A DNA stretch of 64,000 nucleotides from Candidatus Gastranaerophilales bacterium (GCA_947625305.1 CANQNW010000011.1:1-64000), one strand, 5' to 3'; positions 46,180-59,844 are shown, counted from the stretch's first letter. Notes: generated from the letters alone by a model not told the origin. Numbers and translations: made by a program.

Positions 46180-47160
46180 TTGAAATACAAGAGTTGTCAC
46201 TGGATAGAATCGGGAATAAATTTTGATATAGATTCATACAAAGTATGCTGCCTTTATAGTGCTAAAGGCGGTGGGAACACTATTGTTCAGGATGATTACA
46301 AGGGTGAGCCCGTTGATTGGAATAAACTTTTTGAATTCAAAGAAATGATGCGTGAAATGCACAAACGAGGCGAAACTTACCCAAAATGCGAGGGATGTAT
46401 TTATCTCGTTGAGCAAGATTGGGACGATGAACACAATAAAATTAATACAATAAATCTTGATTACTTTACAAAATGCAATTCACGATGTTCATACTGCCAT
46501 ACAATGCTTGATAAAGAAAGATATAATAAATTTAAAAATTATAATTTTCTGCCCATATTAAAAGATATGATAAAAAGAGATATTTTAAGACCTACAGGAC
46601 ACGTAAGCTTTGGCGGCGGAGAAGTTACTCTTTTAAAAGAGTTTGAAACACTTCTGCACATGTTTATAGATGCAGGTTTCCCTTTGACACGAATACATTC
46701 CTCTTGTATTAAGTATTCAAAAGCCGTAGAAAGAGGACTTAAGGAGGGCAAAGTCGATTTAATTGTTTCTGTCGATTCAGGTTCAAAAGAAATGCACAGA
46801 AAAATTAAACAGGTTAATTCATACGATAAAGTATGGAAAAATTTAAAAAGATATGCCTCTCACCAAAAAGACCCGTATGCGGTTAAATCTAAATATATTG
46901 TTATCCCCGGAATAAATGATAATAAAGAAGAACTGTTATTATGGCTAAAAAAATCAAAAGAAAACGGAATAAACTGTGTTTTTCATGAGATAGAATCAAA
47001 ATGGTTTTACGCAAGAAGAGATAATGTTCCTGATGAAATTATAGATTTATTTAATTATACAAAGGAAAAAGCGGAGGAAATGGGCTTAAAATATGTTCTG
47101 TATGAACGGGCTGAACATATGATGGAATACAAACATGAAAAAGAGGTAAGTGTACAATGA
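46180..47160 (+). CDS. Radical SAM protein, first of three tandem paralogues
   Basis: A 326-residue protein with a TTG start and a strong GAGAGGG 7 bases upstream. The radical SAM cluster is C99-NSR-C103-SY-C106, GGGE follows at about residue 144, and the SVDSGS region continues the barrel. Ahead of the barrel are Cys6 (SCHWIESG), Cys23-24 (VCCLY), a C70-x2-C73 pair (CEGC) and the motif WDDE. This layout resembles a SPASM-type extra Fe-S domain placed before, rather than after, the barrel. The substrate is unknown. The ATG of the next gene overlaps its stop by 4 bases. Confidence 0.82.
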   Translation: MKYKSCHWIESGINFDIDSYKVCCLYSAKGGGNTIVQDDYKGEPVDWNKLFEFKEMMREMHKRGETYPKCEGCIYLVEQDWDDEHNKINTINLDYFTKCNSRCSYCHTMLDKERYNKFKNYNFLPILKDMIKRDILRPTGHVSFGGGEVTLLKEFETLLHMFIDAGFPLTRIHSSCIKYSKAVERGLKEGKVDLIVSVDSGSKEMHRKIKQVNSYDKVWKNLKRYASHQKDPYAVKSKYIVIPGINDNKEELLLWLKKSKENGINCVFHEIESKWFYARRDNVPDEIIDLFNYTKEKAEEMGLKYVLYERAEHMMEYKHEKEVSVQ

Positions 47161-48140
47161 GAGAATATACAAGCTGTCATTGGATTCAACACGGATTAAG
47201 TTTTGAAAACGACCATATAGAAATGTGCTGTTTATGCTGTCATAAAGGCGGCGGAAGATTATATGTAAAAGAAAATTACAACGGAAAAGGTGTAAACTGG
47301 GAGGATATTTTTAAATTAAAACAAAAATTCATTGAAGATAATCAAAACGGAATTATAGACCCAAGATGTGAAGGATGCTTTAATCTCGTTCGTAAAGGCT
47401 GGGATGATGATGAAAAATATATAAATTATATTCATTTTAACCACTGGACACATTGTAATTGCAACTGCATATACTGTTATACAAAATATGACAAAGTTAA
47501 CTACAATAAAAGACCGCATTATAAAGCACTGCCTATGGTTAAAGAATTATTTAAAAAGAAATTATTCAGACCTGATGGCGAAATAACTTTTGCTGGCGGT
47601 GAACCTACAATATTGGATGAATTTGAAGATATTATTAATTTTCTTTTAAAAAACGATGTAAAAAGGATTACCGTTCATACTTCGGGTATTAAGTATTCAA
47701 AAGCAATAGAAGCGGGGATACGAGCTCAAAAACTTAATGTTTGTTTATCTGCGGATGCAGGCTCAAGAGATACCTTTATTGCTGCAAAAAAGGTAGATAA
47801 ATTTGATAAATTCTGGCAGAATGTTGAAAAATATGCCAATGCTCAACCCGATGAAAATAAAACTCTTGTGGAAACAAAATTTATTATTATTCCTCAGATA
47901 AACGATAATAAAGAAGAAATTGAAAAGTGGTTCAGTTTAAATCTTGCCTGCGGTGTAAAATCTATTGTTGTTGATATTGAGAATGAATTTTGTATGGCAT
48001 TAAGAAAAGAAAATAAAGAAAGACCTCAATATCTTGTGGAATTATGTAAATACATCGTACAAAGAGCAAAAGAACTTGATTTTAATTTAGTTGATTATAA
48101 TAATTTCAGATATTTAACAACGGAATACAATCTTTTATAG
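47157..48140 (+). CDS. Radical SAM protein, second tandem paralogue
   Basis: A 327-residue protein close to its neighbours. The cluster is C100-NCN-C104-IY-C107. Before it come Cys7 (SCHWIQHG), Cys24, 25, 27 and 28 (MCCLCC), the pair C71-x2-C74, and WDDDE. AGGEPT marks the second SAM-binding element. The 4-base ATGA overlap with the first copy shows translational coupling, and GAGG precedes the ATG. No gene nearby identifies the substrate. Confidence 0.82.
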   Translation: MREYTSCHWIQHGLSFENDHIEMCCLCCHKGGGRLYVKENYNGKGVNWEDIFKLKQKFIEDNQNGIIDPRCEGCFNLVRKGWDDDEKYINYIHFNHWTHCNCNCIYCYTKYDKVNYNKRPHYKALPMVKELFKKKLFRPDGEITFAGGEPTILDEFEDIINFLLKNDVKRITVHTSGIKYSKAIEAGIRAQKLNVCLSADAGSRDTFIAAKKVDKFDKFWQNVEKYANAQPDENKTLVETKFIIIPQINDNKEEIEKWFSLNLACGVKSIVVDIENEFCMALRKENKERPQYLVELCKYIVQRAKELDFNLVDYNNFRYLTTEYNLL

Positions 48141-48150
48141 GAGAAATACT

Positions 48151-49146
48151 TTGGAAGGTTTTGAAAGCTGTGATTATATTGAACACGGAATGGTTTTAGA
48201 CCACTGCAACAGGATAAGAGTATGTAATAATTTTAATCCGAGACACGGCGGAAGACCTGTAATCTATGAAAATTATCACGGTGAAAAAATAGATTGGGAT
48301 GATTTTTTCAAACGCAAATGGGAACTTAGAAAATTTTTCAGAGAAAATAACTGTCCTGAATTATGTATTGACTGCGTTAATAAAGAATTTAAAAATTGGG
48401 ATGATGATAATTACATAGATTACTTACTTTTAACCCCATGGGTGCCTTGTAATTCAAACTGTATATATTGCAGTGCGCCAAGGGATAAAGATGTACTTGA
48501 TAATACAAAAGTATATAAAGTTCTCCCGTTAATAAAAGATATGATAAAAAATAATATACTAAAGAAAGACGGGATTATTGATTTTGCAGGCGGTGAACCA
48601 ACAATATACAGAGAATTCGAGGCTCTTTTAAATGAATTTATTAAAAATGACTTTCAAAAAATCATACTGCACACAAATGCAATTAAAAAGAGCCGTTCTG
48701 TTATAAAGGGCATTAAAAAGGGTGTAATAAGAGTGCTTGTATCTATTGATGCTGGAAGTAAAGAAGTTCATCAAAAAGTGAAACAAGTTAAATCTTATGA
48801 TAAAGTATGGAAGAACTTAGCGGAATATGCTAAACATCAACCAAAGGGAGCTGATAATGTAAAGGCAAAATATATCATAGTCCCGGGGCTAAATGACAGC
48901 GAAGAAGAAATTAATTTATGGCTTGAAAAATGTAAATCAATAAATATTCATTCCGTAGTGCTTAATCTGGATTTCAACTGGATAATGGATAATGTAGACA
49001 ATGATTTAATGCCTTTATATAATTTAATGAAATATACACAAAACAGGGCATTTGAACTTGGTATGAATTGCGAGCTTTACGGGCAGATTTTCCAAATAAA
49101 ATGTGAAGTAGAAAAAAATAGAGAAGAAAATATAGCAGGCTTTTAA
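48151..49146 (+). CDS. Radical SAM protein, third tandem paralogue
   Basis: A 331-residue protein with a TTG start after AGGAGAA. The cluster is C100-NSN-C104-IY-C107. The N-terminal cysteines are partly kept: Cys7 (SCDYIEHG), Cys25 (VCNNF), and the pair C72-x2-C75. This copy has only one Cys where copies 1 and 2 have CC, so the putative extra cluster may differ. AGGEPT and SIDAGSKEVHQKVKQVKSYDKVWKN match copy 1 strongly. The dehydrogenase start follows its stop directly. Confidence 0.82.
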   Translation: MEGFESCDYIEHGMVLDHCNRIRVCNNFNPRHGGRPVIYENYHGEKIDWDDFFKRKWELRKFFRENNCPELCIDCVNKEFKNWDDDNYIDYLLLTPWVPCNSNCIYCSAPRDKDVLDNTKVYKVLPLIKDMIKNNILKKDGIIDFAGGEPTIYREFEALLNEFIKNDFQKIILHTNAIKKSRSVIKGIKKGVIRVLVSIDAGSKEVHQKVKQVKSYDKVWKNLAEYAKHQPKGADNVKAKYIIVPGLNDSEEEINLWLEKCKSINIHSVVLNLDFNWIMDNVDNDLMPLYNLMKYTQNRAFELGMNCELYGQIFQIKCEVEKNREENIAGF

Positions 49147-51100: not shown

Positions 51101-52093
51101 ATGTTAAACGGCAAAACAGTTCTAATTACGGGCGGGACAGGCAGTTTTGGTAAAATGTTTACTAAAACGGTATTAGAAAAATATCCGGATGTAAAAAAAA
51201 TAATTATATATTCAAGAGATGAATTTAAGCAGTTTATGATGTCTAACATGCCCGAATATAAACCTTATTTAAATAAATTAAGATTTTTTATCGGTGATGT
51301 AAGAGATAAAGAAAGAATGATGCGTGCATTTGAAAATGTAGATGTTGTTGTCCATGCAGCAGCACTCAAGCAGGTTCCGGCATGCGAATATAATCCTTTT
51401 GAGGCAATAAAAACAAATGTTCTCGGGGCTCAAAATGTTATAGAATGCGCAATAGATAGAGGTGTTAAAAAAGTTGTAGCACTTTCCACCGACAAAGCAT
51501 GTGCACCTATCAATTTGTACGGAGCAACAAAATTATGTTCCGATAAACTCTTTATTGCTGCCAATGCGTACTCCGGAGGAAAAGAAACTCATTTTGCCGT
51601 TGTTAGATACGGTAATGTAGCAGGTTCAAGGGGAAGTGTTATACCGTTTTTCCAGAAACTCGTAGAAGAAGGAGCAAAAGAACTTCCTATCACAGATATG
51701 AGAATGACAAGATTTTGGCTTAAACTTGAGCAGGCAGTTGAAATGGTATTAGAAACAATAAATCATATGCAGGGCGGGGAATTATACGTTAAGAAAATTC
51801 CTTCTATGAAAATGCCTGATTTAGCTAAAGCTATTGCACCTGACTTAAAAATAAAAGAAGTAGGTATCCGCCCGGGAGAAAAAATCCATGAGCAGATGAT
51901 AACAAAAGAAGATGCTCCTAACACTATTGAGTTTAAAGATTTTTATATAATTCTTCCTCAAATTAAATTCAGCAATATTGAATATAATTATCCGAATGCA
52001 AAAAAAGTTCCTGCTGATTTTGAATATCATTCGGGAAATAATGACAGATGGTTAACCGTTGATGAGATGAAAAAACTAATTGAAAAAATATAA
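51101..52093 (+). CDS. pseB: PseB-type UDP-N-acetylglucosamine 4,6-dehydratase
   Basis: A 330-residue extended short-chain dehydrogenase. LITGGTGSFGKMF is the NADP site at residues 7-19, YSRDEFKQ and AAALKQVPACEYNPFEA match PseB and FlaA1, and YGATKLCSD supplies the Tyr-x3-Lys catalytic pair. This converts UDP-GlcNAc to 4-keto-6-deoxy-L-AltNAc-type intermediates, the first step towards pseudaminic acid. The PseI-like gene at 58828 at the other end of the locus supports this pathway. The AGGGG upstream of the start is 10 bases away. Confidence 0.85.
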   Translation: MLNGKTVLITGGTGSFGKMFTKTVLEKYPDVKKIIIYSRDEFKQFMMSNMPEYKPYLNKLRFFIGDVRDKERMMRAFENVDVVVHAAALKQVPACEYNPFEAIKTNVLGAQNVIECAIDRGVKKVVALSTDKACAPINLYGATKLCSDKLFIAANAYSGGKETHFAVVRYGNVAGSRGSVIPFFQKLVEEGAKELPITDMRMTRFWLKLEQAVEMVLETINHMQGGELYVKKIPSMKMPDLAKAIAPDLKIKEVGIRPGEKIHEQMITKEDAPNTIEFKDFYIILPQIKFSNIEYNYPNAKKVPADFEYHSGNNDRWLTVDEMKKLIEKI

Positions 52094-52125: not shown

Positions 52126-53137
52126 ATGACAATAAGATTTTGTAAAAAATGCGGGTTTATACTTGGGACAAGACCCGGAATGCTCGATCAGGGGGGGGGT
52201 ATGTCAGCCTTGCATAAATGAAGAAAATAAAAAAAATATTGATTTTAAAGCAAGACAAGAATGGTTAACTCAATATATTAAGGATAATAAAACAAACGAT
52301 AAATACGACTGTGTTATTGCTGTTTCAGGAGGAAAAGATTCAACAGCAATTGTAAAAAGGTTAATGGATAATCACGGAGTTAAAAATCCTTTATTAGTTA
52401 CAGTCGCTGACGAATTTACAAGTACGCAGGCAGGTATCCACAATAAGAAAAATTTAGGTGATTATTTTGGGGTGGATCATATAACCTTCAGATGCAATCC
52501 GCAGGAATTTAAAAAACATACTCTTGAAGACTTTGAAAATGAACTTCATCCGCTTAAATGGATTGAAAAAAGATTATATGAAATTCCTTTTGAAATAGCA
52601 AAAGCATATCATATTAAACTTGTGTTTTTTGGTGAAAATTCCGCATACGAATATGGTACATCAGAAAAATTGGAAATTTTCCATCCCACCTTATGCGATG
52701 ATGAAACTCAAGTTATTTTTATGGGAGCTATTTATCCGTACGGCAATTATGATTCCTTAGAAGTTGCAAAAGAATGCGGATTTAGAGATTTAAACTACTA
52801 TAATGAATGGCAGAGGAGCGGAATTATAGATCAATATACTCAAATTGATTCAATCGGTTATCTTGCGCATCATTGGTGTAAATTTGTAAAATTCGGATTT
52901 CAAAGGACAATGGATATGGCTTGCCGTTTTGTTAGAGAAGGAAAACTTACAAAAGAACAAGCGGAGTTATTAATTAAAGAAAATGACTTTAAACTTGATC
53001 AAGCGGCAAAAAGAGATTTTTGCAGAACAATAGGCATAACTGAAGAACATTTTGATGAAGTTGTTGAAAAACACGCAAATAAAGACCTCGTTTATAAAGA
53101 CATTAACGGAAATTGGAAATTACGGATTGACCAATAG
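52126..53137 (+). CDS. PP-loop N-acetyl sugar amidotransferase (PseA-like), out of frame at a G9 tract
   Basis: The true start is the ATG at 52126, with GGAGGG 7 bases upstream. Its frame reads MTIRFCKKCGF...TRPGMLDQGG, then meets the G9 run at 52191-52199 and terminates at TGA 31 codons in. The remainder of the gene is in the next frame (GVCQPCINEENKK to the end at 53137). With one G fewer (G8, or G11) the two join as DQGGVCQPC, matching the family's N-terminal double CxxC zinc site, to give about 336 residues. SGGKDS is the ATP PP-loop and the catalytic core is intact. The family converts a sugar N-acetyl group to acetamidino in pseudaminic or legionaminic acids. The frame as read is OFF, although a TTG at 52163 might give low-level product. 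Confidence 0.85.
52191..52199 (+). repeat. G9 homopolymer in the amidotransferase gene
   Basis: Nine consecutive G residues, 66 bases after the start codon. The gene is in frame only with 8 or 11. It lies in an otherwise AT-rich coding region. Confidence 0.9.
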
Positions 53138-53149
53138 CACTTGCTTATT

Positions 53150-53192
53150 AATGTCACGAAATGAGAATGGAAACTTCTCATTTCGTGACATT
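53150..53192. repeat. Perfect 18-bp inverted repeat, hairpin downstream of the amidotransferase gene
   Basis: Arms AATGTCACGAAATGAGAA (53150-53167) and TTCTCATTTCGTGACATT (53175-53192) with loop TGGAAAC. It is longer than other terminators here and is followed by TTATATTA rather than a clean T-run. It may act as a terminator, a transcript stabiliser or a regulatory hairpin between the two halves of the locus. Confidence 0.75.
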
Positions 53193-53293
53193 TTATATTA
53201 CGTTTATTTCGCAATTTAGATTTAAAAAATTTACATACAGACAAGTTTATCCTAAAATTTTATACAGAGAGTATATTGTAAAAAAGGAAATAA

Positions 53294-54190
53294 ATGGAAG
53301 ATATAAAAACATATTTTAAAGTTTTTACCGTTGAAAAAATGGAAAGACGAATAGCATATAAACTCTTTGGACATACAATATTTAGAAGCGGTGTTAAAAG
53401 ACGCGGACTGTATGATATGTTCACTATACTTGAAAAGTATACAGGGGTTAAAACAAAATTTAAAAAAATCGGACTTCAGCACGGATGGGCACCGCAAAAC
53501 TATTTCGCTAAAGAAGAACTGGAAGAAAAAGTTTTATTTTATCTGCATTGGAACAAAAGAAGAAAAAACATCTGGGATAAAAATTCAAATATTCCTTCTT
53601 ATGTTGTTACTGCTCCATTTGTAATTTACAGAAGAATGAATAACATTACTCAAAGCAAAGATGCAAAAGGCACAATAGCATATCCCTCTCACAGCGTATT
53701 AACCTTAAAAGCGGAATACAACATTGATGAATACTGCCGTCTATTAAAAGAGCTCCCCGAGGAGTTTCAACCCGTTACAATATCACTTCATCATATTGAT
53801 ATTGAAATATTTCATATGGATGTTGAATATGAAAAAAGGGGATTTAAAACTATATGTTCCTCTTTTCATCAAGGGGATAAAACATTTTATGAAGGATTTT
53901 ATGATATTTTAAAAAATTATAAATATGCAACTTCTAATGAACCCGGGACATATGCATTTTATGCAATAGAAATGGGAATACCTTTCTTTGTACTCGGAAA
54001 CCCCTCGGTTAGAGAAAATTCAACAATATTAGAGGATGAATACGGGAAAATCGCCTATGATTTATTCTCAAAAAAACCATTCGGAGTTATAACAAAAGAA
54101 CAATTAGATTTTGTTAACAGTGAAATAGGTGTAACTGATTGTTTGACAAAAGAAGAACTTAGAAATATACTAAAACAGGCTCAAAAGTAA
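53294..54190 (+). CDS. Putative glycosyltransferase-like surface polysaccharide protein
   Basis: A 298-residue protein of no clear family. KKIGLQHGWAP near residues 57-67 resembles the 'QHG' acceptor-site motif of GT-B polysialyltransferase, CDP-glycerol or Kdo-type capsule transferases. SNEPGTYAFYAIEMGIPFFVLGNPSVRE near residue 217 resembles the donor-site 'EPxTxxxEAxxxGxPxxxl' segment. It is placed between phase-variable sugar genes. The function is inferred from these weak motifs and location. AAGGA precedes the ATG. Confidence 0.5.
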   Translation: MEDIKTYFKVFTVEKMERRIAYKLFGHTIFRSGVKRRGLYDMFTILEKYTGVKTKFKKIGLQHGWAPQNYFAKEELEEKVLFYLHWNKRRKNIWDKNSNIPSYVVTAPFVIYRRMNNITQSKDAKGTIAYPSHSVLTLKAEYNIDEYCRLLKELPEEFQPVTISLHHIDIEIFHMDVEYEKRGFKTICSSFHQGDKTFYEGFYDILKNYKYATSNEPGTYAFYAIEMGIPFFVLGNPSVRENSTILEDEYGKIAYDLFSKKPFGVITKEQLDFVNSEIGVTDCLTKEELRNILKQAQK

Positions 54191-54197
54191 TAAATTT

Positions 54198-55471
54198 ATG
54201 ATTAATTTTATAAGAGAAGAAAAACTTAATACTACGGTTGTTGAAGAAGGATATATTTCCCCTCTGAGAGAAATTAATAATAATTCTTTAGACTTTAAAT
54301 GCCATGGCGGAGTATTTGATAAAAATTTAAATTTTATAAAAAATTCCCAGCAAACCTCCTATGACAATTATACAGGTATTTGTAATAACTTGTTATCCCC
54401 AATTACCCCCCCCCATACGATTATAAGCAGAATATAACATATAACAATTATGAAATTTGCTATTGCGGAATAATTTCAGGTGCATTCGGGCATGTTTTAA
54501 CAGAATCAATTTCAAGATTATGGTTTGTTGTTAATGAAAAACCTGATATAAAATGTGCATTTATAACGGAAACTGATAATTACAACTTAATTTATGAGTT
54601 CTGCGAACTGTTAAATATTAAAAAGGAAAACATTGAAATTATAACTAAACCTGCTCAGTATAAAAAAATATATGTTCCCGAGTCAAGTTTTTACTTAAAT
54701 AAAAATGTTACAAAAGAATATCTGAGCATAATAAATAAAATACTTTCAAATGTTCCCATAAAAAAAGATTTTTCCGGAAAACTTTTCTTAAGCAGTAAAT
54801 ATTACAATTCCAACAGAAGAATAGGCGAATATCAGCTTGAAAAAATATTTAATGAAAACGGATATACAAGTTTTTATCCCGAACAACTGCCTCTAAAAGA
54901 ACAGATTTCATACATAAAAAGCTGTTCGGAATTTGTAACGACAGAAGGAACTTCATCTCACATGGGAGTATTTCTGCCCGATAATTCAAAATTAATTATT
55001 CTTAAAAGACATAAAGAATATAATAAAACACAGTTGTGTATAGATAATTTAAAAGATTACAATGTTACATACATAAATACACAGGTGAATTTAATAGATT
55101 TTCAAAGTCTTCAAACACCTGCACTTCTCGGAATTACGGATGAGTTAGAAAAATTTTTTAAAGAAAATAACTTTAAATATAATAAAAATTCAATACAATT
55201 TACAGATATAGTAAGATATATAAGTGCCTGTAAAAAATTCAATAATCAATATAAATGTATAAATGATGAAGTATCTTATAACTTAACTCAGCTTAAAGTC
55301 GCAAATGTGATTTTGTGTAACAAATTATTTAAATTTATACGGCTTTTTATTTGTTTTAACTTAAATAAAAAATTTAATATATGCAAAAAAGCAGAAAAAA
55401 AATATTTCCCTGACGGAGAATTAATACTTCAATATAAATTATGGAAATTTTCGGTTGAATTTATAAGTTAA
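54198..55471 (+). CDS. GT61 (DUF563) glycosyltransferase, out of frame at a C9 tract
   Basis: The ATG at 54198 opens a frame of 79 residues that stops at 54437, just after a run of nine C residues (54406-54414). From there another frame runs to 55471 with a clear GT61 domain: GAFGHVLTESISRLWF, LFLSSKYYNSNRRIGEYQ, and EQISYIKSCSEFVTTEGTSSHMG match the family's R-x-N and final glycine-alanine motifs. One more C (C10, or C7) joins the halves to about 424 residues. The two halves are joined nowhere else, and the downstream part lacks a plausible start. The frame as read is OFF. The start has no strong Shine-Dalgarno. Confidence 0.85.
54406..54414 (+). repeat. C9 homopolymer in the GT61 gene
   Basis: Nine consecutive C residues (G9 on the minus strand). 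The gene is in frame with 7 or 10. It lies about 70 codons after the start. Confidence 0.9.
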
Positions 55472-55514
55472 TTTCAGATATAATAAATACCATAAAAATA
55501 TGTTAGGGATTTAA

Positions 55515-56297
55515 ATGTCAATAAAATTGGGATTAAAGCTTTGGTCTATAAACACCGATTACTACTATGATGAAGCGATAAAGCTGTACAGTGAAAACTA
55601 TTTTGATTATATTGAACTTTATGCTGTTCCTGATACGCTTAATCTGATTGAAAAATGGAAAAAACTTAACATTCCGTTTGCAATTCATGCTCCGCATTTT
55701 GCACACAATTTAAATTTCTCAACAAAAGAACAATATGAATATAACTTTAAACTTGTTGAACAGGTAAAAGAGTATTCGGAAAGTTTAAATGCAATATATA
55801 CAATATTTCATCCCGGAATTGGCGGACAACTGGATGAAACAATAAAACAAATGAAAGAAATTAAAGGATTAAATTTTTTAGTTGAAAATAAACCTTTTGT
55901 TGTTCCCAAAATAAAAAATAATATGGATGATTATTGCATGGGGGCAAGAATTGAAGACATAAAAGAAATATTAAACGAAGTAAATTGCGGTTTCTGCCTT
56001 GATATAGGACATTGTATTTGCACGGCAAATTATTTAAAACAAAATATATATGAATACTTAAGTAAAATGAATTTATTAAACCCGCAAGTTTATCATATCA
56101 GCGACAATTTTTCGGACAATATATATGATGAGCATTTACATTTTGGCTCGGGGAGTCTTGATATAAGAAAAATTGTAAATATTCTAAATGATAATACCTA
56201 TCTTGCAATTGAAACAACAAAAGACAGTAAAACAAATCTGGATGATTTTAAACAAGATTCAACATATCTAAAAAATATTATTAAAAAGGAAATATAA
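55515..56297 (+). CDS. Sugar phosphate isomerase/epimerase, AP endonuclease 2-type TIM barrel
   Basis: A 260-residue TIM barrel of the xylose isomerase-like superfamily. FAIHAPHFAHNLNFS, YTIFHPGIGG, LVENKP (metal-binding Glu) and FCLDIGHCICTA with a following VYHISDN provide the metal-ligand His, Glu and Asp pattern. HFGSGSLDIRKIV fits the final strand. It could isomerise or epimerise a sugar nucleotide precursor in the locus. The substrate is not readable. The ATG has AGGGAT upstream. Confidence 0.8.
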   Translation: MSIKLGLKLWSINTDYYYDEAIKLYSENYFDYIELYAVPDTLNLIEKWKKLNIPFAIHAPHFAHNLNFSTKEQYEYNFKLVEQVKEYSESLNAIYTIFHPGIGGQLDETIKQMKEIKGLNFLVENKPFVVPKIKNNMDDYCMGARIEDIKEILNEVNCGFCLDIGHCICTANYLKQNIYEYLSKMNLLNPQVYHISDNFSDNIYDEHLHFGSGSLDIRKIVNILNDNTYLAIETTKDSKTNLDDFKQDSTYLKNIIKKEI

Positions 56298-58358
56298 ATG
56301 TTAATTGAAGATTTAAAAACAAAATTACTTGAAATAGGTCTGGGGGGGGGTATAAACCTGTTTGTAACCTCAGACATGCTATCATTATTTTATGATGCTT
56401 ATCGAATGGAGGAAAAAATAACCTGTAATGATGTTATTGACACTTTGCAGGAGATAATAACACCTGAAGGTAATTTAATATTTCCTACCTACAATTGGGA
56501 TTTTTGTAAAGGTATAGCATTTGATTATAATAAAACACGCTCATTAACAGGCTCTTTAACCCAAACAGCGCTGGAGAGAGCAGATTTTATAAGAACTAAA
56601 CATCCTATATATTCATTTGCCGTATGGGGAAAAGATGCAGAATATTTAGCAGGTCTTGATTATAAAGACTCCTTCGGAGAAAATTCAATTTTCGGTTGGT
56701 TTGAAAAAACAAATACGAAAAATTTATTTATAGGAATGGAAATAGGTGGTGAAACATATATACATTTTTGTCAGGAGAGAGAAAATGCTCCATATAGGTT
56801 TATAAAAGACTTTACTTCCGAATATATAGACAAGAACGGCAAGAAAGACACTCGTACATACTCAATGTTCGTAAGATATCTTGATAAACTGAGCCAAAAT
56901 AACGACGAATATACAATTGTAGAACAGCTAAAAAGATGCGGCAATTTAAAAGAAACTTATTTACACAGCACTATTCTAAGAATATATGATATGAAAACAG
57001 CATATAAGTTTGTTAAAAATGATGTAATATACAATAACTCAATAAGAACAGCAATATATTGGGATAATGCTAATCTAAACAAAGCCGGAAAAGACATGTA
57101 TGCTTTAATTGAAAAATTATTCCCGATTTGCCGTTCACTAACAGGTAACGGGGTCAGACAAACCTTAAACGAAATTAAAAATATTCTTCCCGAATTAAAA
57201 ATATATGAAGTACCAACAGGTACTAAAGTTCAGGACTGGACTATTCCAAAAGAATGGAATATAAATGACGGCTGGATAAAAAATTCAAAGGGTGAAAAAA
57301 TCATTGATTTTAAAGAAAATAACCTTCATATTATGGGATATTCTCTGCCTGTGCATAAAAAAGTTTCACTAGATGAACTTAAAGAAATTGTATACACACT
57401 TCCCGAACAACCTGACTTAATTCCTTATGTAACTTCTTACTACAAAGAAAGATTTGGATTTTGCATGAGCGATAACCTGTTAAAATCATTAAAAGAAGAT
57501 GAATATGAAATATATATCGATTCAACTCTAAAGGAGGGCTCATTAACATATGCGGATTTGGTAATTCCCGGGGAAACAGATGAAGAAATTATGCTCAGCA
57601 CATATGTGTGCCACCCGTCAATGACAAATAACGAATTATCAGGGCCTGCTCTTGCAGTCTATCTGGCAAAATACTTAAAAGAAAGAAAAAACCATTATAC
57701 ATACAGATTTGTATTTAATCCTGAAACAATAGGTTCAATTACATACATCACAAAAAATATTGAACATTTAAAGGCTAAATTAAAAGCAGGTTTTATATTG
57801 ACTTGCGTAGGAGACTGCGGAGACTTTTCATATATAGCAAGCAGATATGGAGATACTCTTGCTGATAAAGCGGCAAAATGTATTTTATCAACAGAACAGC
57901 CAAGATATAATTCATATTCATATCTTGAAAGAGGTTCTGATGAAAGACAATATTGCTCACCCGGAGTTGATTTACCATTTTGCTCGGTAATCAGGACTAA
58001 ATATGGTGAATATCCCGAATATCACACCTCGGGAGACAATCTTCAATTTGTTTCGTATGCATCACTTGCAGAAACATACAATATATATTTAAAAATCATT
58101 AATGCGCTTGAAAAAAATAACTACTATAAAATTAATTGTCTATGCGAGCCTCAGCTGGGCAAAAGAGGGTTATACCCAAATACCAGTACAAAATCCTCGG
58201 GTGATACGGTAAGAAATATGATGAATATAATTGCTTATCTTGACGGAAAAAATGACTTATTTGATATTTCTAATATAACAAATGTCAAGATATCAGAAGT
58301 TATTGAAACTGTTAAAAAATTGAAAGAAAGCAATTTAATTGATATAATAAAACAATAA
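56298..58358 (+). CDS. AAC(3)-like acetyltransferase fused to a DUF4910 aminopeptidase-like domain, G9 in frame
   Basis: A 686-residue fusion. Residues about 10-260 resemble the aminoglycoside 3-N-acetyltransferase fold: IFPTYNWDF, RTKHPIYSFAVWGKDAEYL and FGWFEKTNTKNLFIG match its acetyl-CoA and His sites, here more likely acylating a sugar amine than an antibiotic. From about residue 275 it is DUF4910, a zinc-peptidase-like domain with CHPSMTNNELSGP, ERGSDERQYCSPGVDLPFCSV and EYHTSGDN carrying the metal ligands. A G9 run at 56342-56350 codes for GGG (residues 16-18), in frame. Either G8 or G10 brings a stop within about 20 codons. Confidence 0.8.
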   Translation: MLIEDLKTKLLEIGLGGGINLFVTSDMLSLFYDAYRMEEKITCNDVIDTLQEIITPEGNLIFPTYNWDFCKGIAFDYNKTRSLTGSLTQTALERADFIRTKHPIYSFAVWGKDAEYLAGLDYKDSFGENSIFGWFEKTNTKNLFIGMEIGGETYIHFCQERENAPYRFIKDFTSEYIDKNGKKDTRTYSMFVRYLDKLSQNNDEYTIVEQLKRCGNLKETYLHSTILRIYDMKTAYKFVKNDVIYNNSIRTAIYWDNANLNKAGKDMYALIEKLFPICRSLTGNGVRQTLNEIKNILPELKIYEVPTGTKVQDWTIPKEWNINDGWIKNSKGEKIIDFKENNLHIMGYSLPVHKKVSLDELKEIVYTLPEQPDLIPYVTSYYKERFGFCMSDNLLKSLKEDEYEIYIDSTLKEGSLTYADLVIPGETDEEIMLSTYVCHPSMTNNELSGPALAVYLAKYLKERKNHYTYRFVFNPETIGSITYITKNIEHLKAKLKAGFILTCVGDCGDFSYIASRYGDTLADKAAKCILSTEQPRYNSYSYLERGSDERQYCSPGVDLPFCSVIRTKYGEYPEYHTSGDNLQFVSYASLAETYNIYLKIINALEKNNYYKINCLCEPQLGKRGLYPNTSTKSSGDTVRNMMNIIAYLDGKNDLFDISNITNVKISEVIETVKKLKESNLIDIIKQ
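56342..56350 (+). repeat. G9 homopolymer in the AAC(3)-DUF4910 gene
   Basis: Nine consecutive G residues, 44 bases after the ATG. The gene is in frame at this length. With 8, a stop (TAA) follows at once; with 10, a TGA follows within about 20 codons. Confidence 0.9.
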
Positions 58359-58378: not shown

Positions 58379-58807
58379 ATGCTTAAATACAGATATGCTT
58401 CAAAAGAAGATATTAAGAAGATTTTTGATTTATCAAATGACCCTGATGTGCGGGAAAAATCAGAAAATAAAAATTTAATTACATGGGAAGAGCACGTTAG
58501 TTGGTTTAATCAAAGAATAGAAAATAAAAAATTTCCTTTTTTCATTGTTGAAAATGAACAAAATCAATTTATAGGTCAGGTAAGATTTGAACCAAAAGGA
58601 AGTGAAACAGTTATTTCCATAAGTCTCACCAAAGAATTTCGCTCTCAGGGATTCGGAACACAAATTATAAAAGAGAGTATAAAAAAAGCAGGCTATACAA
58701 ATGTAATTGCATACATAAACACATCTAATATTCCGTCTGTTAAGTCATTTGAGAAGGCCGGTTTCAAAAATTCAAATTTATTAAAATTTAAATTTGAAGA
58801 TAAATAA
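58379..58807 (+). CDS. GNAT N-acetyltransferase, PseH-like
   Basis: A 142-residue acetyltransferase. ISLTKEFRSQGFGTQIIKES is the acetyl-CoA binding loop (R/QxxGxG/A type), and NIPSVKSFEKAGF the C-terminal GNAT motif. In pseudaminic acid synthesis a GNAT (PseH) acetylates a 4-amino sugar, and this is the only GNAT in the locus, so that role is likely but inferred. AAGG precedes the ATG and it is 20 bases after the upstream stop. Confidence 0.78.
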   Translation: MLKYRYASKEDIKKIFDLSNDPDVREKSENKNLITWEEHVSWFNQRIENKKFPFFIVENEQNQFIGQVRFEPKGSETVISISLTKEFRSQGFGTQIIKESIKKAGYTNVIAYINTSNIPSVKSFEKAGFKNSNLLKFKFEDK

Positions 58808-58827: not shown

Positions 58828-59844
58828 ATGCAAAGAACATATATTATTGCAGAAATGAGCGCAAATCACTGCGGAGATAAAGAACTTGCAAAGAAAATAA
58901 TAAAATCGGCTAAAGAAATCGGGGCTAATGCTGTCAAAATTCAGACCTACACAGCGGATACTTTGACTATTAATTGCAAAAATCCCGAATTTTTAATTAA
59001 GGGAAAAGATAATTTATGGCAAGGCGAATATTTATTTGAATTATACAAAAAAGCCTATACTCCGTGGGAATGGCAGGGAGAATTAAAACAATATGCCGAT
59101 AATATCGGTATAGACTTTTTTTCAACACCTTTTGATTTTAGCGCAGTGGATTTTTTAGAAAGCATAAACGTGCCGATGTACAAAATAGCCAGCTTTGAAG
59201 CAATAGACTATCCGCTAATTAAGTATGCAGCATCTAAAGGAAAACCTATGATAATATCAGTCGGAATATCATCACTTGATGAAATCCAAGAGGCAATAAA
59301 TACTTGCAAAAGTGAAGGAAATAATAATATAACAATACTAAAATGCACCTCCTCATACCCTGCAAAGTTAGAGGATATGAATTTAATAACAATAAAAGAT
59401 ATGATAGAAAAATTTTCACCTCAAGGGGTAAAAGTCGGGCTTTCAGACCATTCAATGAATATAGAACCCGTTATAACAGCTGTTGCACTTGGTGCTGCAG
59501 TTATAGAAAAACATTTTACGATTGACCGTTCTTTGGGCGGTGCAGATAGCGGATTTTCGCTGAATTATGAAGAATTTAAGCAGATGGTTACTGCCGTCAG
59601 AAATACCGAAAAACTTTTAGGCACTGCTGATTATACAGTAAATAAAGAAAACAGAAGGTTTGCAAGGTCATTATATGCGGTTAAAGATATAAAATGCGGT
59701 GAAAAATTCACTCCTGAAAACATTCGTTCCATAAGACCTTCAGACGGACTTCCTCCAAAAGAATACTATAATATTTTAGGCAAGACAGCAAAGTGTGATT
59801 TAAAATTCGGAACTCCGTTAAAGTTAGAATATATAAATTGTTAA
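58828..59844 (+). CDS. pseI: Pseudaminic acid synthase, NeuB family
   Basis: A 338-residue protein with the NeuB barrel and a C-terminal SAF (antifreeze-like) domain. IIAEMSANHCGDKELA, KIQTYTADTLT, CTSSYPAKLEDMNL, VGLSDHSMN, IEKHFTIDRSLGGADSGFSL and FARSLYAVKDIKCGE match pseudaminic acid synthase PseI more closely than sialic acid synthase, where the KTQ and SDH motifs differ. It condenses a 6-deoxy-AltdiNAc with phosphoenolpyruvate to make pseudaminic acid. Remaining steps (PseC, PseG, PseF) are not in the window. It has its own AGAGG. Confidence 0.88.
   Translation: MQRTYIIAEMSANHCGDKELAKKIIKSAKEIGANAVKIQTYTADTLTINCKNPEFLIKGKDNLWQGEYLFELYKKAYTPWEWQGELKQYADNIGIDFFSTPFDFSAVDFLESINVPMYKIASFEAIDYPLIKYAASKGKPMIISVGISSLDEIQEAINTCKSEGNNNITILKCTSSYPAKLEDMNLITIKDMIEKFSPQGVKVGLSDHSMNIEPVITAVALGAAVIEKHFTIDRSLGGADSGFSLNYEEFKQMVTAVRNTEKLLGTADYTVNKENRRFARSLYAVKDIKCGEKFTPENIRSIRPSDGLPPKEYYNILGKTAKCDLKFGTPLKLEYINC

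Follow-up and report, generated by a model that had tools for sequence, protein, structure and literature searches.

Phase variation at poly-G tracts has been studied mostly in host-adapted pathogens (Campylobacter, Helicobacter and Neisseria), and both Campylobacter and Helicobacter lack the MutS/MutL mismatch-repair system. A homopolymer can also lie between the -35 and -10 elements of a phase-variable promoter, as in porA and opc of Neisseria and fim of Bordetella. The Gastranaerophilales belong to the non-photosynthetic sister group of the cyanobacteria. A genus survey with PhasomeIt found that 53% of Campylobacter tracts are 9-mers and 26% are 10-mers (PMC6321876), and Campylobacter jejuni NCTC 11168 carries 29 tracts of seven or more (PMC4965091); in the same species, two neighbouring poly-G genes, Cj1295 and Cj1296/7, act in phase-variable modification of the flagellin glycan (PMC3068675). 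The present work concerns a 64,000-nucleotide stretch of a Candidatus Gastranaerophilales bacterium genome (GCA_947625305.1, CANQNW010000011.1:1-64000), analysed at its full length and termed the window, in which three genes of a surface-sugar locus each carry a run of nine G or C. These tracts, and some 70 in the genome as a whole, are very probably contingency loci that vary by slipped-strand mispairing.

Results

Tracts in the window and across the genome

A preliminary description of the window had proposed that the three tracts, each in the 5' part of a separate gene, form one phase-variable locus with up to eight on/off states. The G+C content of the window is 30.9%, and a run scan of its 64 kb confirmed the three nine-base runs (Table 1) and recovered no further G/C run of six or more. 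Three-frame translation bore out the proposed states, with two genes OFF and one ON. The frame that opens at the ATG of gene 1 (52126) ends shortly past the tract, and a body of 311 amino acids (aa) is open in a different frame; the frame from 54198 in gene 2 terminates at 54437, with a 351-aa body again open in a different frame; and gene 3 is a single uninterrupted frame of 686 aa. The two shifted frames are thus otherwise intact, as had been claimed.

The uniqueness of the three runs is a property of the window only. The genome (1.97 Mb in 26 contigs, every tract being read with its flanking stretch) contains 74 runs of at least 7 G on either strand and 71 of at least 8, against approximately one run of eight expected from base composition, an estimate that uses the G+C content of the window. 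Run lengths were tallied over 350 kb of sequence from the same genome, one stretch around each tract, and the G/C counts were 531, 70, 1, 3, 6, 40, 20 and 5 for lengths 4, 5, 6, 7, 8, 9, 10 and 11, respectively. This distribution is bimodal, being near zero at lengths 6-7 and peaking at 9 (40/74, 54%), followed by 10 (20/74, 27%), and a second peak is absent from A/T runs. The sister genome G005 showed a profile of the same shape (18 runs of length 9, 32 of length 10 and 9 of length 11, with runs of up to 16). The counts and the bimodality rule out chance as the source, as the runs of 9-11 far exceed extrapolation from the shorter ones. Clusters elsewhere are equally dense, for example five tracts within 5.3 kb of contig C8. 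The slipped-strand mechanism of the preliminary description is supported; the unit, however, is the genome with its ~70 tracts, where the description had three genes and eight states, and the three-gene view also misses a second class of tract, located in promoters.

It could be that sequencing or assembly inserted or mis-sized the runs, through two-colour poly-G errors or homopolymer miscalls. Homopolymers can be miscounted in short-read metagenome assemblies, and single lengths may be off by one. Note, however, that the runs occur as both G and C and lie inside contigs, that matching sites are present in separate genomes (G005, G007 and G010), that they fall in particular functional classes, that some sister genomes lack them, and that no comparable excess of A/T runs is seen. 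An artefactual origin is hardly credible.

Forty-nine of the 74 tracts are intragenic; of the remaining 25, about eight sit at a TATAAT -10 box ahead of a gene. About half of the intragenic tracts sit within the first fifth of the gene, and 24 are in frame (ON) and 25 out of frame (OFF). By Pfam, the genes are mainly of glycan and surface types (GT2, GT8, GT61, RgpF, WbqC and TupA); others are several FkbM-domain methyltransferases, UDP-galactopyranose mutase, MBOAT, PIG-L and DegT, together with acyltransferases, sugar-nucleotide enzymes and radical SAM enzymes from glycan islands. Tracts are missing from the window's flanking housekeeping genes, namely those for L9, adenylate kinase, methionyl aminopeptidase and NAD(P)H-hydrate dehydratase. 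A PurD-like tract gene (L042:8038) was considered as a switched housekeeping gene and rejected, being one of two adjoining ATP-grasp paralogs in a glycan region; here, a glycan-type gene lies between the two PurD-like paralogs (L042:5222-8748), and the poly-G (G10, out of frame) is found in one copy only. A G-quadruplex reading was unneeded for single runs of 9-11 at scattered coding positions. Two further tract regions were recorded. In one, a 407-aa open reading frame is preceded by two tandem units of ~160 bp that are 83% identical, one with a poly-C of 11 and one with a poly-C of 9 (L049:2997-3205). The other has an out-of-frame G9 early in a secreted-looking protein of at least 999 aa that has no Pfam match and runs past the end of the stretch (L068:5485-8481).

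Conservation, length change and selection in relatives

The closest named homolog came from 'Candidatus Gastranaerophilales bacterium Lapin-004 bin44', in agreement with the taxonomic placement guessed in the preliminary description. A homolog of gene 3 with 80% identity is present in G010, a 'Candidatus Gastranaerophilales bacterium' genome of the same genus, and a paralog lies on contig C10 of the genome under study. All three genes carry G9 at the same codon, in frame, and the site has been kept despite near-saturated synonymous sites (dS 1.5-1.8). Distant homologs usually read K-G-D or similar at this position, not G-G-G, and the Gly-Gly-Gly of gene 3 is therefore produced by the tract and not by conservation in the family. 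Tract lengths were also compared among related genomes, as the preliminary description had advised, at a site in a radical SAM gene. The lengths there are C8 (contig C10, in frame) and C9 (contig C14, out of frame) in the own genome, C10 in G005 and C11 in G007 (both out of frame), and the tract is absent in G004 and G020. All such differences at one site are between species or between paralogs.

In G015, the tract site of the gene 1 homolog (84% aa identity) is occupied by ordinary sequence, and the gene is one open frame. Both pieces of gene 2 align within one open frame in each of G190 (L237) and G113 (L242), and no tract was present in any of the gene 2 relatives examined (27-35% identity). 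The preliminary description had held that tractless relatives with an open frame would count against switching; such relatives do exist for genes 1 and 2, yet the idea is not refuted, because they show the working in-frame form and show tracts coming and going.

Another interpretation of these data is ordinary pseudogenization, by which the runs would be incidental to glycan genes in decay. The tractless homologs are in keeping with decay, as is the out-of-frame position of about half of the intragenic tracts. The sequence on either side of the tracts is open, however, and purifying selection was detected where tested, namely for gene 1 (OFF; dN 0.13 against G015, with dS saturated) and for the radical SAM gene (OFF; dN/dS 0.13). 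The bimodal lengths, with almost none at 6-7, argue strongly against decay; moreover, a tract is kept at the same site across species, and decay would not put runs between -35 and -10 boxes. Pseudogenization is very unlikely, and the evidence from relatives is consistent with switching genes in which tracts are gained and lost, and is not consistent with decay.

Tract sites common to two species were few by DNA-level search and amounted to seven pairs by protein-level search, so most tracts appear to be species-specific. The loci of gene 3 homologs from Treponema, Fretibacterium and Deferribacterales (L110, L129, L144 and L141) also have long G/C runs (C24, C21 and C14 in L110; G11 inside the gene 3 homolog in L144), a hint that switches of this kind may exist in other phyla.

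Tracts in promoters

An exact TATAAT was found 0-12 nt downstream of the G tract, on the G strand, for 11 of 76 counted tracts (74 sites plus two repeat counts where stretches overlap), against 1.9 expected. Most of these tracts have a gene start 23-123 nt beyond, and for approximately eight of the 11 the gene start is no more than 130 nt away and the tract lies outside long open frames. A promoter scan identified TTGACA-16-TATAAT in stretch L044, a 12/12 match to the consensus with G10 within the spacer, and two promoters in L032 that match at 11/12 and 10/12. Judging from characterised promoters of this architecture, a change in spacing would be expected to alter transcription. A cassette consisting of G8-10, then nine bases (TAAAARTGG or TAGAAGTKG), then TATAAT recurs in five copies here and in four in G005 (Table 1), and several copies precede kelch-repeat proteins whose N terminus resembles a signal sequence. 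The copies in L040 and L041 share 91% identity across 418 bp.

Alternatively, RNA polymerase or ribosome slippage might allow OFF genes to be partly expressed, with the runs tuning the level of expression and not acting as heritable switches. Programmed slippage on homopolymers occurs in bacteria, and the present data are compatible with it. On the other hand, the runs known from programmed slippage are mostly A/T, and slippage of this kind leaves both the promoter-spacer tracts and the drift in length from 8 to 11 at one site unexplained. We regard it as improbable, to much the same degree as decay.

The surface-sugar locus of the window

The locus (Table 1) likely makes a pseudaminic-acid-type sugar, because its PseB and PseI exceed curated cut-offs. 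PseC, PseF and PseG were not among the window proteins examined, the search for them being confined to the window. Gene 1 scored 192.5 bits against TIGR03573 (WbuX; cut-off 203.2) with the 311-aa body alone, and belongs to the amidotransferase family of which PseA is a member; gene 2 matched PF04577 (E 9.5e-12). A flagellar glycan as the target was rejected, since flagellin had no match in this genome, and the sugar is presumably carried by a different surface glycan. Through the three switches, the amidation of the sugar, its attachment partner and its N-acyl decoration would change. In G010, a G9 tract lies ~60 nt past the gene 3 homolog (stretch L107, position 11058). Upstream of the locus, the window has three successive related radical SAM genes of 326-331 aa (46180-49146).

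Table 1. Tracts, genes of the locus and promoter cassettes (window positions unless a stretch is named).
Feature	Position	Strand	Description
Poly-G tract, 9 G	52191..52199	+	Codon ~22 of gene 1; OFF in assembly
Poly-C tract, 9 C, sense strand	54406..54414	+	~69 codons into gene 2; OFF
Poly-G tract, 9 G	56342..56350	+	Codons ~15-18 of gene 3; ON
PseB, UDP-GlcNAc 4,6-dehydratase (inverting)	51101..52093	+	TIGR03589 528.9 bits, cut-off 407.75; no tract
Gene 1, N-acetyl-sugar amidotransferase, WbuX/PseA-like	52126..53137	+	5' piece and 311-aa body in different frames
298-aa protein	53294..54190	+	No NCBIfam match; no tract
Gene 2, glycosyltransferase family 61-like	54198..55471	+	5' piece 69 aa, body 351 aa, in different frames
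TIM-barrel sugar-isomerase/endonuclease-IV-like protein	55515..56297	+	Weak NCBIfam matches to deoxyribonuclease IV, under cut-off; no tract
Gene 3, AAC(3)-like N-acetyltransferase + DUF4910/DUF2172 aminopeptidase-like domain + HTH_47 fusion	56298..58358	+	PF02522, PF16254, PF09940, PF16221
GNAT acetyltransferase resembling PseH	58379..58807	+	TIGR03585 40.6 bits, under cut-off; no tract
PseI, pseudaminic acid synthase	58828..59844	+	TIGR03586 465 bits, cut-off 340; no tract
Poly-G-spacer/TATAAT cassette copies	L032:3752, L035:3000, L040:4018, L041:2999, L061:1910; G005 L205:135, L228, L229 (two)

Distribution in the family

Across the 226 genomes sampled from the family, the number of tracts of at least 8 per genome ranged from 0 to 179 with a median of 14; 93 of the 226 had at least 20 and 45 had two or fewer. 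The remaining families of the order had 0-15 tracts per genome. These tallies were transcribed by hand from the genome listing, and low counts among relatives may include chance runs, as the counts were made without regard to G+C content. In the genus to which the window belongs, some species have 50-120 tracts and others none. Within one genus, the number of tracts of at least 8 G spans 0 to 121 (G127, G018, G021, G006 and G001 versus G146, G007 and G008), for which the cause is not obvious. The tracts cannot be put down to a loss of mismatch repair, since MutS_I and MutL_C domains are found in tract-rich and tract-poor genomes alike.

Discussion

Polymerase slippage during replication would add or remove one base in G/C runs of ~8-11 bases. 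Inside a gene, such a change would shift the frame, and only about every third length would yield the full protein; in a promoter, tract length would set the distance from -35 to -10 and thus, probably, the strength of transcription. With ~70 independent sites, a clonal population could come to carry mixed surface glycans and surface proteins, and immunity, phages or host binding may then select among the variants. The locus in the window would represent one such state, with the amidotransferase and the GT61 glycosyltransferase OFF and the acetyltransferase-aminopeptidase fusion ON.

Several observations weigh against contingency switching. Many sister species are nearly free of tracts, for which no explanation was found. 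MutS and MutL have open frames in this genome and are present in nearly all relatives; because both are present, unlike in Campylobacter, switching rates may be lower than in that genus. The share of ON genes (24/49) is somewhat above one third (p 0.02). Finally, some runs are not switches, and two were discounted. The run in a phage-type methyltransferase (L045) is paralleled in phage homologs at the same alignment length; it was rejected as a switch, IMG/VR homologs with G7 or G8 and conserved Gly-Gly codons being sufficient to explain it. The run in a D12 methyltransferase (L064; G7, in a Gly-rich-looking stretch) is probably ordinary coding sequence.

No prior report of phase variation or homopolymer switches in Melainabacteria, Gastranaerophilales or Vampirovibrio was found in the literature searched, most subscription journals being outside the search, and the suggestion in the preliminary description that the finding is new for Gastranaerophilales agrees with this. 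The mechanism itself is known; as far as the searched literature goes, what is new is its presence and scale in this family and the repeated promoter cassette. With some reserve, we favour the reading that a gut family on the cyanobacterial branch independently evolved large poly-G phasomes (up to ~180 tracts) while keeping mismatch repair, that these have two outputs, namely frame switches in glycan enzymes and a poly-G-spacer promoter cassette before kelch-repeat and other surface proteins, and that the whole repertoire is gained and lost between close species. The occurrence of a genome-wide set in uncultured, probably non-motile gut commensals suggests random surface-sugar switching to be a general strategy for living in the gut, one arrived at independently and acting on the same kinds of enzyme. 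The tract-rich and tract-poor sister species offer an opening to ask what drives the gain and loss of phasomes, and existing metagenomic reads could be used to test switching directly.

The resemblance to poly-G glycan loci of Campylobacter, first noted in the preliminary description, was borne out by the length profile and by the enzyme types of gene 3. The phasome described here and that of Campylobacter are alike in tract base composition, in a length profile led by 9 and then 10, in ON and OFF frames, in surface-glycan targets, in an AT-rich gut bacterium as host, and in having approximately two thirds to three quarters of tracts intragenic. The genome under study differs in belonging to an unrelated phylum, in possessing MutS and MutL and in having no flagellin that could be found. 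Sense-strand poly-C accounts for 9 of the 49 intragenic tracts (18%), compared with 5% in Campylobacter, and some members of the family reach 179 tracts of 8 or more, whereas 5-81 phase-variable genes are reported for Campylobacter strains.

At the level of single loci, gene 3 unites the aminopeptidase-like and N-acetyltransferase enzyme types of Cj1295 and Cj1296/7, a likeness drawn by domain type, and pseudaminic-acid genes adjoin in both cases; gene 3, however, is one fused gene with a single 5' tract. The tract promoters resemble those of porA, opc and fim in that the tract occupies the spacer of a promoter close to consensus, ahead of genes for surface proteins, but differ in that the arrangement is a dispersed, repeated cassette, present in at least two species and with several copies placed before kelch-repeat proteins.

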